A DNA stretch of 64,000 nt, taken from the NCBI RefSeq assembly GCF_023074835.1, contig NZ_JALLGW010000001.1, positions 682,001 through 746,000 of the forward strand, read 5' to 3'. How positions within the stretch are numbered: the stretch's first letter is position 1; each line of letters starts with the position of its first letter. The position numbers were made by a program, and so were the translations under genes. The notes beneath the pieces are model-generated. The model searched no databases. It saw nothing but the letters and a program-made list of their open reading frames with translations, and was not told where the DNA came from. Shown here piece after piece: positions 30,279-62,473 of this stretch. This stretch comes from Halomarina salina (GTDB lineage Archaea > Halobacteriota > Halobacteria > Halobacteriales > Haloarculaceae).

Positions 30279-30441
30279 CGAAGGGTCCGAGGTTCGAGAG
30301 GCGCTTCTGACAGCGGTCTTCGGACGCCTCGGGGCGTGGGGTTACGAAAGCTGTCCTCGTTTTCCCCGCCGCCGACGATTCACACGATTCTGTACGCACT
30401 TCGCTGCCCAACGAGGGTCGTCCTGGCATCGACGTACTCAT

Positions 30442-30455
30442 GTTCGTGCATACCC
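30442..30455 (+). promoter_or_regulatory. Candidate purine operator before the PRTase-type regulator gene
   Basis: GTTCGTGCATACCC, 12 of 14 identical to the sites at 31205 and 62408. It lies 11-24 nt before ATG 30466, overlapping the expected TSS region, where bound protein would repress (autoregulation). Confidence 0.6.
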
Positions 30456-30465
30456 GTCGGGGCAC

Positions 30466-31179
30466 ATGAACCGCGCCGAGAAGGCGACCCTCCAGTTGCG
30501 GGCGGTCGCCGTCCTGCGGACGCTCAAGCGGACGCGCACGTACGACGAACTCGCCGAGGAGACGGGGCTCCCGGCCGGCGACCTGAACCGGTACGTCAAC
30601 GGCCACGTGCTCCCGGGCGAGGCTCGCGCGAGGGGGATCGTCACAGAGACGGGATACGAGGCGCTCGCGGCCGAACTCGAATCCCGCATCCGCCACGACG
30701 ACGAGGGGTACGTCGACAACTCCGACGCCGTCTTCGACCAGCCGTTTCTGGACCTCGTCGCGCCCGTCGTCGCCGAGCGCTTCGAGTTCGAGACGCCCGA
30801 CGTGGTGCTCACCGCCGCGACCGACGGCATCACGCTCGGGTCGGCGATGGCCCGGCACTTCGACGCACGCCTCGCGTACGCGAAGAAGTCGAAGGAGACG
30901 GCCGTCGAGGAGTTCGTCGAGGCGCGCAAGCGATTCGAGTCCGGCATCGAACTCACCTACTACCTCCCGGAACACGCGCTGGCGGCCCGCGACAGCGTCC
31001 TCGTCGTCGACGACCTCATCCGCTCCGGGGAGACGCAGGAACTGCTGCTCGACATCGCGACGCAGACCGAAGCCGACGTCGTCGGCGTGTTCGCACTCAT
31101 CGCCGCCGGAACCGACGGCGTGGAGGTCGCGCAGTCCCGGACCGACGCCCCCGTCGGTGCGCTGACGACGCTCGACTGA
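30466..31179 (+). CDS. HTH-phosphoribosyltransferase regulator (putative purine regulator)
   Basis: 237 aa. The N-terminal 65 residues form an HTH (RAVAVLRTLKRTRTYDELAEETGLPAGDLNRYVNGHVLPG). The rest is a type I PRTase fold: PDVVLTAATDGITLGSAMARHF, AYAKKSKETAVEEFVEARK and the PRPP-binding loop DSVLVVDDLIRSGETQ. Haloarchaeal GfcR and bacterial PurR share the HTH+PRTase plan and are regulators rather than enzymes. The N-terminus here differs from GfcR as I recall it, and the next gene is a purine permease, so I infer a PRPP-responsive purine regulator. The same motif lies before this gene, the permease and purO. Confidence 0.8.
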   Translation: MNRAEKATLQLRAVAVLRTLKRTRTYDELAEETGLPAGDLNRYVNGHVLPGEARARGIVTETGYEALAAELESRIRHDDEGYVDNSDAVFDQPFLDLVAPVVAERFEFETPDVVLTAATDGITLGSAMARHFDARLAYAKKSKETAVEEFVEARKRFESGIELTYYLPEHALAARDSVLVVDDLIRSGETQELLLDIATQTEADVVGVFALIAAGTDGVEVAQSRTDAPVGALTTLD

Positions 31180-31204
31180 GCGGTTCTCGTCGGTACGAAT
31201 CCAC

Positions 31205-31218
31205 GTTCGTGCATACTT
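31205..31218 (+). promoter_or_regulatory. Candidate purine operator, permease promoter (distal)
   Basis: GTTCGTGCATACTT, identical over 14 nt to 62408-62421 in front of purO. It lies 51-64 nt upstream of ATG 31269, just upstream of the TATA-like CCTAAG (31231-31236). Confidence 0.65.
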
Positions 31219-31239
31219 CGTACGGAAACGCCTAAGTCG

Positions 31240-31258
31240 GTATGCGGAAGTATGCTCA
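31240..31258 (-). promoter_or_regulatory. Candidate purine operator, permease promoter (proximal, inverted)
   Basis: Contains AAGTATGC (31248-31255), the reverse complement of GCATACTT in the distal site, plus another GTATGC at 31240-31245. It lies between the TATA-like box and the start codon, so occupancy would hinder initiation. Confidence 0.5.
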
Positions 31259-31268
31259 CACGTGATCC

Positions 31269-32741
31269 ATGGGGGCCACTGATACACAGTCGGGCGAGTC
31301 GTCGAGTGGCGTGCGCGGGAGCATCCGCGAGTTCTTCGAGTTCGACCGGTACGGGACGGACCTCGGCACCGAAATCACCGCGGGAATCACGACGTTCCTG
31401 ACGATGAGCTACATCGTCATCCTCAACCCGGCCATCCTCGGTCCGGCCATCACCGTCTCCGGGATGAGCGACGCCGCGGTGACGTCGATGCTCGCCGTCG
31501 TCACCATCCTCTCGGCGTTCGTCGCGACGAGCATCATGGCGCTGTACGCCAACCGACCGTTCGGGCAAGCGCCCGGTCTGGGCCTGAACGCGTTCTTCGC
31601 GTTCACGGTCGTCCTCGGACTCGGCGTCCCGTGGCAGACGGCGCTCGCCGCCGTCGTCGTCGAGGGGTTCGTCTTCATCCTCCTCACCGTCTTCGGCGCG
31701 CGGAAGTTCATCATCGAGGCGTTCCCCGAACCCGTCAAGTTCTCCGTCGGGGCCGGCATCGGCGCGTTCCTCGCGCTCATCGGCCTCGAAGAGATGGGCA
31801 TCGTCGTCAACAGCGACTCGACGCTCGTCACGCTCGGCAACGTCGCCAGCGACCCCGTCGCCATCATGTCCATCGTCGGCCTGTTCCTCACGCTCGCGCT
31901 CTACGCGCGCGGCGTTCGCGGGTCCATCCTCCTCGGCATCCTCGGCACGACGTTGCTTGGCTGTCTGGTCACGTTCGCCGGACTCGTGGCTCCCGGCACC
32001 GTCGCCCCCGGCTTCGTCCTGGACGGCAGTATCGACGTGGCGGCCCTCCAGAACCAGCTGCTCGGCGCGCAGTACGACATCTCGCCGCTGGCGGGTGCGT
32101 TCGTCACCGGGCTGACCGGCGTCGAACCGTTCGCGTTCTCGCTCGTCGTCTTCACGTTCTTCTTCGTCGACTTCTTCGACACCGCCGGCACCCTGACCGG
32201 CGTCGGACAGGCCGCCGGGTTCCTCGACGAGGACGGCGACCTCCCCGACATCGAGAAGCCGCTGATGGCCGACGCCGTCGGCACCACCGTCGGCGGGATG
32301 CTCGGCACCTCCACCGTCACCACCTACATCGAGTCCGCGACGGGCGTCGAGGAGGGCGGTCGGACGGGCATGACGGCGCTCGTCGTCGCCCTGCTGTTCC
32401 TCGTCTCGCTGGTGTTCGTCCCGCTGGCGACCGCGATTCCGCTGTACGCCAGCCACATCGCGCTGGTCGTCATCGCCGTCGTGATGCTCGGCAACATCGC
32501 CGCCGTCGACTGGGACGACATCACCCACACCGTCCCGGCTGGTCTGACCATCCTCGTCATGCCGTTCACGTACAACATCGGCTACGGCATCGCCGCGGGC
32601 ATCATCTCGTACCCGCTCGTGAAGGCCGCCGTCGGCGAGTGGCGGGACGTCCGCCCGACGCAGGTGGTGCTCGCGCTGGCGTTCGTCGTCTACTTCGTCG
32701 TCGCCACCGGCGGCGTCCTCGACGCCGCGGTCGGGTCCTGA
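31269..32741 (+). CDS. Purine permease, NCS2/AzgA (PbuG/GhxP) type
   Basis: 490 aa, 12-14 predicted TM helices. N-terminal signature FFEFDRYGTDLGTEITAGITTFLTMSYIVILNP, then NRPFGQAPGLGLNAFFAFTVV, and FFFVDFFDTAGTLTGVGQAAGF, which are typical of AzgA-like guanine/hypoxanthine/adenine permeases within NCS2. It imports purine bases, probably with H+ or Na+. It lies 89 nt downstream of the PRTase-type regulator, with its own operator-bearing promoter. The exact base is not predictable. Confidence 0.9.
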   Translation: MGATDTQSGESSSGVRGSIREFFEFDRYGTDLGTEITAGITTFLTMSYIVILNPAILGPAITVSGMSDAAVTSMLAVVTILSAFVATSIMALYANRPFGQAPGLGLNAFFAFTVVLGLGVPWQTALAAVVVEGFVFILLTVFGARKFIIEAFPEPVKFSVGAGIGAFLALIGLEEMGIVVNSDSTLVTLGNVASDPVAIMSIVGLFLTLALYARGVRGSILLGILGTTLLGCLVTFAGLVAPGTVAPGFVLDGSIDVAALQNQLLGAQYDISPLAGAFVTGLTGVEPFAFSLVVFTFFFVDFFDTAGTLTGVGQAAGFLDEDGDLPDIEKPLMADAVGTTVGGMLGTSTVTTYIESATGVEEGGRTGMTALVVALLFLVSLVFVPLATAIPLYASHIALVVIAVVMLGNIAAVDWDDITHTVPAGLTILVMPFTYNIGYGIAAGIISYPLVKAAVGEWRDVRPTQVVLALAFVVYFVVATGGVLDAAVGS

Positions 32742-56984: not shown

Positions 56985-57860
56985 TCATCCGAACTTGCCG
57001 GTGATGTAGTCCTCGACGCGGTCGTTCTCGGGGTTCTCGAAGATTTTCTGCGTGTCGTCGAACTCGACGAGTTCCCCGCCGGTGAGGAAGACGGCCGTCT
57101 TGTCCGAGATGCGGGCGGCCTGCTGCATGTTGTGCGTGACGATGGCGACGGTGTACTCCTCGGCCAGGTCGTCGATGAGGTCCTCTATCTGCGAGGTGGC
57201 GATGGGGTCGAGCGCCGAGGCGGGTTCGTCCATCAGCAGGACCTCGGGGTCGGGGGCGATGGCGCGGGCGATGCAGAGGCGCTGCTGTTGCCCGCCGGAG
57301 AGTTCGAGGCCGGACTCGTCGAGGCGGTCCTTGACCTCGTCCCAGAGCGCCGCCCGCTTCAGCGACTCCTCGACGACCTGGTCGTAGTCGGCCTGGATGC
57401 CCTGTACCTTCAGGCCGTAGAGGACGTTCTCGCGGATGGACTTCGGGAACGGGTTGGGTTTCTGGAACACCATCCCGACGCGGCGGCGGAGCGCGACCGG
57501 GTCGACGTCCGCGTCGTAGACGTTCTTCCCGCCGAGGTACAGGTCGCCCTCAACGCGGGCGGCGTCGATGAGGTCGTTCATCCGGTTGATACACCGGAGG
57601 AACGTCGACTTCCCACACCCCGAGGGGCCGATCATCGCGGTCACCTTGTGCTCGGGGATGGCCAGCGTGATGTCGTCGAGCGCCTGGTCGTCGTCGTACC
57701 AGACGCTGATGCCCTCGGCGCGGACGATGGGGTCGTCCGGTCGCGTCGACCGGTCGCCGCCCTCCAGCCCCGAACTGACGTCCGTGTCGACGAGCGTCTC
57801 GCCGGTGGGGTCCTTCGACTCGTCCGATGCTACCGTCGTCTCCGATTCGTTGTTGTTCAT
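56985..57860 (-). CDS. pstB: Phosphate ABC transporter ATP-binding protein PstB
   Basis: 291 aa. ATP-binding domain with Walker [22 protein letters not shown], the PstB signature [37 protein letters not shown], and H-loop [21 protein letters not shown]. It has a 40-residue acidic N-terminus unlike bacterial PstB. Last gene of pstS-pstC-pstA-pstB, 9 nt after pstA. No phoU gene follows it in this window, whereas many archaea and bacteria have one. Confidence 0.96.
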
Positions 57861-61812: not shown

Positions 61813-62403
61813 CTACTCGTTGACGAACGCGCTGTCGACGCCCTCGCCGCCCGCGCCGACCGTGACGCCCGCCGCGCAGACCGCGTGTTCGAACTCGTGG
61901 TCGTACAGTTCGCGGGCAGCGCCCGCCGCGTCGTCGGCGTCGAGGGCGAACGGTTCGGGGTCGTCGGCCTCGTAGGTGGCGACGAGCGTCGGTTCGTCGA
62001 CTTCTCGAACGACCAGTCCATCCCGGCGGACCGTGGCGACGGTGGCCGTCTCCGCCCCCACGACTCCGGCGACCCGCGGCGTGTCGTAGTCGTCCTTCTC
62101 GAAGTCCAGCGCGAGCAGGGAGAGCGCTAGCGCGTCGCGAGCGGGGTAGCCCAGCCCGAGCTTCTCGGTGACGGGATCGACGTGCGACCCGTTGCCGACG
62201 ACCGCCACGGGGCCGTCCGCCCGGTCGACGGTCCGCAGGCAGTTGTACGAGACGTACGGGTTGTCCGTGGGCGGCGCGTCCGGCGTGGGCGCGACGGTGA
62301 GCGTCCCGTCCCGGTCGGCGACCCGCCGGTTCGGGAACGACCGCGAGGAGACTCGATACCCACCGATGCCGGGACCGACGACGACGAAGCGACCGACGTA
62401 CAT
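61813..62403 (-). CDS. purO: IMP cyclohydrolase PurO
   Basis: 196 aa, the archaeal-type IMP cyclohydrolase (FAICAR to IMP, last step of purine synthesis). The [26 protein letters not shown] opening is a family hallmark; further conserved stretches are [27 protein letters not shown] and [11 protein letters not shown]. The TATA-like box on the minus strand (62424-62434) is about 26-28 nt upstream of ATG 62403, and the 14-nt motif shared with the purine permease promoter is between them. Confidence 0.93.
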
Positions 62404-62407
62404 ACGT

Positions 62408-62421
62408 GTTCGTGCATACTT
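62408..62421 (-). promoter_or_regulatory. Candidate purine operator before purO
   Basis: GTTCGTGCATACTT on the plus strand (AAGTATGCACGAAC in gene direction), identical to 31205-31218. It lies 5-18 nt upstream of the purO start, between TATA box and TSS, a repressor position. Confidence 0.65.
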
Positions 62422-62434: not shown

Positions 62435-62449
62435 CTGACGAAGATGCAC

Positions 62450-62473
62450 GTTCGACCCGAAACGAAGGGGTCG
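62450..62473 (+). repeat. ORB-like site far from the origin
   Basis: GTTCGACCCGAAACGAAGGG then GTCG: a near-full match to the origin ORBs at 49 kb from the origin core, in the purO/tRNA-Gln spacer. Confidence 0.5.

Follow-up and report, generated by a model that had tools for sequence, protein, structure and literature searches.

The window, by which we mean the whole 64-kb stretch of Halomarina salina DNA that was analysed, carries a gene at 30466 for an HTH-phosphoribosyltransferase protein, the gene for an NCS2-family permease directly downstream and, further along on the opposite strand, purO (Table 1). The initial annotation identified the three products in the same way, and the family models agree with it. 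It had also drawn attention to a 14-mer, GTTCGTGCATACTT, which is indeed exact at 31205-31218 and 62408-62421 and has a 12/14 copy at 30442-30455. The inverted partial copy reported at 31248-31255 is present as well; it extends as an 11/14 match on the minus strand to 31248-31261 and forms the left-hand half-site of another, weaker candidate operator before the permease. Where the annotation was off is in the boundary of the motif. Judged by comparison of the sites, the repeated 14-mer takes in one half-site and the centre of an 18-bp inverted repeat with the consensus TATNCACRWWYGTGNATA, or, written as half-sites, TATGCACG-NN-CGTGCATA, and this palindrome is the true unit in front of the regulator gene, the permease gene and purO.

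Table 1. Genes and candidate operators in the window (window coordinates)
Feature	Position	Strand	Remarks
Candidate operator before the regulator's own gene	30435..30452	.	TACTCATGTTCGTGCATA; 13 bp from end to ATG
Predicted purine regulator, 237 aa	30466..31179	+	N-terminal HTH (~residues 15-58) + type I phosphoribosyltransferase domain
Candidate permease operator 1	31198..31215	.	AATCCACGTTCGTGCATA; 22.8 bits, top site of the window
Candidate permease operator 2	31251..31268	.	TATGCTCACACGTGATCC; weak, 5.4 bits; adjoins ATG
NCS2-family (xanthine/uracil type) permease, 490 aa, predicted target	31269..32741	+	PF00860 130.6 bits
purO, archaeal IMP cyclohydrolase, predicted target	61813..62403	-	TIGR01922 210.8 bits, cut-off 158
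Candidate purO operator 1	62401..62418	.	CATACGTGTTCGTGCATA; overlaps purO start codon
Candidate purO operator 2	62443..62460	.	one good half-site (GATGCACGTTCGACCCGA); weak

In Halomarina rubra and H. oriensis, the operator before the regulator gene lies at almost the same position, and permease operator 2 is stronger in the Halomarina relatives, with its spacing to operator 1 unchanged. At purO, operator 1 is kept at -15 in many regulator-bearing haloarchaea, and the conserved -57/-58 position in relatives points to operator 2. One further matrix match in the window, at 57854 (12.7 bits), lies over the start of an ORF without a purine link and was not counted, since the reversed window holds a chance match of 15.0 bits.

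The repeat had originally been judged too rare to arise by chance, a calculation that is valid only for a 14-mer chosen beforehand. Over all 14-mers, 64 kb should contain about 15 repeats by chance (64000^2/2 pairs x 2 orientations / 4^14), and 15 of 100 shuffles of the window reach four matches with up to three mismatches. Thus, the motif had to be tested beyond the window, and it is the whole-genome and comparative tests, rather than the repeat itself, that make it significant.

Distribution of the palindrome in haloarchaeal genomes

The 4.46-Mb genome of H. salina was covered by pattern searches, with the reversed pattern as the control. The exact matches to GTTCGTGCATACTT are at the NCS2 permease and purO, the one-mismatch match is at a second nucleobase permease related to pbuX, and the two-mismatch matches include the regulator, purF and gcvPA along with others that have no purine link. 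All five occurrences of the 12-mer GTTCGTGCATAC are before purine genes (reversed control, 0). The palindrome with up to three mismatches is found at eight places, seven of which are purine promoters, namely those of the regulator, the NCS2 permease, the pbuX-like permease, purF, purL, purC and the divergent purNH/purB pair, and a refined consensus with up to two mismatches is found at six places, five of them purine promoters; the control gave 0 in both cases. The site at gcvPA, which serves glycine cleavage and one-carbon supply, scores 14.3 bits (L005, C1:2139042). The survey of pur genes in this genome left out purM, purD, purE, guaA, guaB and hpt. Two palindrome matches, one at the start of a glycosyltransferase-like gene (L094) and one on contig C5 (L308), were set aside as chance, with no purine gene nearby. 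Elsewhere in the genome, an alpha/beta-hydrolase-like gene stretch appears twice about 40 kb apart (C2:405004, L008; C2:444922, L009), identical in gene coordinates and in sequence over the parts compared.

For comparison between species, a matrix trained only on eight H. salina sites was applied upstream of orthologues at a threshold of 10 bits. A purF site was found in 18 of 20 regulator-bearing genomes, a set that like every such set in this test includes H. salina itself, versus 0 of 10 genomes without the regulator and 0 of 20 in the reversed control, and the best purF score in regulator-bearing genomes had a median of 16.2 bits versus 2.6 bits in the reversed control. The corresponding figures for purNH were 24 of 26 and 0 of 4, so that no site of at least 10 bits was found at purF (n=10) or purNH (n=4) of the tested regulator-less genomes. 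Among regulator-bearing genomes, the regulator's own promoter has a site in 23 of 30 and purO in 16 of 29. With a refined matrix, a second panel gave sites at 20 of 20 promoters in Halobacterium-genus genomes versus 2 of 20 in regulator-less ones, and both of the latter were at purO. Counted over whole genomes, palindromes numbered 588 versus 367 in the control for the 94 regulator-bearing genomes and 51 versus 105 for the 22 genomes without the regulator (Mann-Whitney p = 3e-9 between groups, a value that is indicative only, since the genomes are related and the counts not independent). The gene is missing from several separate lineages (f1 g2/g3/g5/g7, f3 g28, f4 g43, f5 g18 and f8 g29), and the association of site with regulator therefore rests on more than one event. 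The shared operator and purine regulon put forward in the initial annotation are strongly favoured by this enrichment at purine genes in related genomes.

What speaks against this reading is purO, which lacks the site in some regulator-bearing genomes and keeps it in two regulator-less ones. In those two (G084 and G051; L364, L365), a site of 11.7-11.8 bits is located at -15, and it may be a relic or show that the start region is constrained. In most regulator-less relatives, and also in the regulator-bearing G050, purF is directly behind a small zinc-ribbon, ribosomal-protein-like gene (L133, L135, L136, L141, L144, L149, L152, L154, L156 and L157), so that operator loss goes with a rearranged promoter. 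The purN-purH fusion was recovered as two separate matches, as if split, in G032 (C1:2816812-2818293) and G043 (C1:38102-39565).

Regulator, permease and purO stand as predicted members of the regulon first described, and the regulon appears to be much wider than those three genes. In a whole-genome search of three Halobacterium-genus genomes, where gene names came from reading translations rather than from model searches, the best sites were before purK, purS-purQ, purL, purA, gcvPA, serA and a gene resembling 5'-nucleotidase; gcvPA carries its site in two genomes of this genus (L376, L126) and serA in G023 (L125). In further genomes, purC and a permease have sites as well. The predicted regulon comprises the regulator, nucleobase permeases, purF, purL, purSQ, purK, purC, purNH, purB, purO, purA, gcvPA and serA, with membership that varies by species, and it would cover de novo purine synthesis, nucleobase uptake and one-carbon supply. 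As far as sequence allows, the comparative evidence establishes both the regulon and its operator. In G018, a good site separates the 5'-nucleotidase-like gene from a divergently oriented neighbour (C7:41014, L371), which suggests control of nucleotide scavenging.

Many of the promoters carry two sites. The regulator, permease, purO, purNH and purF regions together gave 182 site pairs versus 16 in reversed sequence, and the spacings pile up at 42/43, 50-53 and 61-63 bp, or about 4, 5 and 6 helical turns. The window pairs are spaced 53 bp at the permease (31198, 31251) and 42 bp at purO (62401, 62443), the second site of each being weak. The downstream site of a pair extends to the start codon or adjoins it, and in many genomes the two purO sites have a T-rich stretch between them. 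Since the sites are 4, 5 or 6 helical turns apart, two dimers would sit on the same face of the DNA, and the layout fits a pair of dimers that flank and close the promoter.

The 30466 protein and known regulators

The 30466 protein is a full-length member of NF006328/PRK08558 (333.6 bits, cut-off 184, residues 1-236), a family that carries the NCBI name adenine phosphoribosyltransferase, and it also matches PF00156 (36.8 bits). Among 148 genomes of the phylum, NF006328 is above cut-off only in haloarchaea; 2 of 14 named control genomes are above it as well. The PRPP loop of the phosphoribosyltransferase domain is intact (VLVVDDLIRSGETQ), with DDLIRSGET invariant in 12 orthologues. Residues 1-75 are similar to HTH_3/HTH_31, scoring just below the Pfam cut-off in six of seven orthologues; they are as conserved as the rest of the protein, and the LPAGDLNRYVNGHVLPG stretch within them is invariant in the same number of orthologues as the loop (12). 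While the family name denotes an enzyme, the analysis points to a transcription factor, and the name is probably misleading across haloarchaea (30466-31179 and orthologues L031-L060). No description of PRK08558 or of a haloarchaeal purine repressor was found in the open-access literature, subscription papers being outside the search.

The closest known system is PurR of Bacillus subtilis (TIGR01743; 1o57, 1p4a, 7rmw), which likewise joins an HTH to a type I phosphoribosyltransferase domain with a PRPP loop and acts through paired operators on purine synthesis and transport genes, the targets here being deduced from predicted operators. PurR (1p4a/1o57) is the best match in a PDB sequence search (E 2e-7, residues 75-217) and is among the top fold matches of an AlphaFold model; the model is weak (12 sequences only, mean pLDDT 69, N-terminus 36-52), and its fold matches thus serve as support only. 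However, the 30466 protein scores 43.6 bits against a TIGR01743 cut-off of 258.7, the alignment with PurR begins only at residue 75, and a short HTH_3-like HTH, itself below cut-off, appears to take the place of PurR's N-terminal winged-helix domain. The PurBoxes of Bacillus are 14 bp long with a 16-17 bp spacer (PMC8789054), whereas here 18-bp palindromes are 42-63 bp apart. By model score and operator layout, the system is predicted to be a haloarchaeal PurR analogue outside the PurR family.

GfcR is also a haloarchaeal transcription factor with a PRTase domain, an activator of sugar genes (PMC11519228), but as an identity for the 30466 protein it is ruled out by a PRK02277 score below cut-off (23.7 bits against 115). 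TrmB of Halobacterium salinarum is comparable in that it, too, regulates metabolism in a haloarchaeon, and it binds weakly at purine genes; its effect there was judged indirect, and its motif, TACT-N7-8-GAGTA, does not fit the palindrome, which excludes TrmB as the factor (PMC3794607, PMC4540570). A Pfam search of the 30466 protein gives only Pribosyltran, so that a LacI-type PurR is excluded.

The E. coli PurR, a LacI-family protein that binds hypoxanthine/guanine, controls pur genes, nucleobase transport and glycine cleavage, and the predicted haloarchaeal regulon is alike in content.

A candidate purine switch

The same palindrome stands before the 30466 gene itself and before most purine genes, and it is mostly absent there in relatives without the gene, which makes the gene a probable purine switch. 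We consider it highly probable that its product is a haloarchaeal purine repressor that works like Bacillus PurR on TATNCACRWWYGTGNATA. The 30466 protein is very likely the binding factor, in keeping with the original proposal for the adjacent HTH-PRTase protein, which both the co-occurrence of site and regulator and the domain make-up support, and repression by it is likely. A dimer would bind the 18-bp palindrome via the N-terminal HTH; at many promoters, two dimers on the same DNA face, the first on the upstream side of the TATA region and the second at the start site, would hold the promoter shut. The phosphoribosyltransferase domain would be the sensor, in whose pocket PRPP as inducer and a purine nucleotide or base as co-repressor probably compete, so that the genes would open when PRPP is high relative to purines.

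Purine-gene expression has been studied in H. salinarum, to which the genome G018 is tied by a bacteriorhodopsin identical to the PDB protein of that species at 230 of 230 residues. G018 carries the regulator followed by an NCS2 permease, and sites precede these two genes as well as purF, purO and purNH. Two studies of H. salinarum concluded that its purine genes answer to a regulator other than TrmB, and one of them could find no PurR homologue; the genes respond to glucose with an immediate increase and are likewise high with purines and PRPP both low (PMC3794607, PMC4540570). Their expression correlates negatively with purine levels, independently of TrmB (PMC4540570). The 30466 family protein is the natural candidate for this regulator. 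The earlier suggestion that PRPP signals sufficiency is doubtful, as PRPP is the inducer that removes Bacillus PurR from its operators, with ppGpp competing against it (PMC8789054). Neither PRPP alone nor PRPP as a sign of sufficiency explains both H. salinarum responses, and for that reason a sensor of the PRPP-to-purine ratio is proposed; such sensing would explain them and is the least certain step.

An alternative is that some other conserved DNA-binding protein acts on a real operator and that the 30466 product is a regulated salvage enzyme, an adenine phosphoribosyltransferase with a decayed HTH. The family name, the intact PRPP loop, the HTH score below cut-off and the fact that a salvage enzyme is a natural regulon member would all agree with this. 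We nevertheless regard it as quite improbable, given that the 75 N-terminal residues are conserved like the rest, that the operators vanish with the gene in several separate lineages that keep the de novo purine genes, and that the closest solved relative by sequence is a repressor and not an APRT. It is also unlikely that the protein binds the sites but activates some or all of its targets. GfcR sets a precedent for an activator of the PRTase type (PMC11519228), and the purF sites, well upstream of the start codon (~-90), would suit one; however, the purO and permease sites overlap or adjoin the start codon, where a bound protein blocks polymerase, haloarchaeal genes being mostly leaderless, and the purine genes of H. 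salinarum go up as purine levels drop (PMC4540570).

A coincidental 14-mer, or a generic promoter element unrelated to purines, would account for the repeats and near-matches expected within 64 kb and reached in shuffled windows, but it is refuted by the comparative tests: the genome-wide specificity for purine promoters with zero control matches, and the way in which sites come and go with the regulator, leave it a vanishingly small probability.

If the 30466 protein is the purine repressor proposed here, haloarchaea may, separately from Firmicutes, have built a repressor from an HTH_3-like domain and a PRPP-binding phosphoribosyltransferase, with ratio sensing that does without ppGpp, a phase-locked two-dimer clamp and perhaps an enzyme activity still in place; we put this fuller picture forward tentatively, as a speculative possibility. 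In its last part, it would unite salvage enzyme and repressor in one protein. The analysis supplies genetically tractable haloarchaea with a named gene, a candidate operator and a list of predicted targets; for H. salinarum, published work had inferred a non-TrmB regulator. If correct, it would also amend a database name, adenine phosphoribosyltransferase, behind which a transcription factor is hidden, and would add a clear archaeal example of the fold of a salvage enzyme put to use as a purine sensor.
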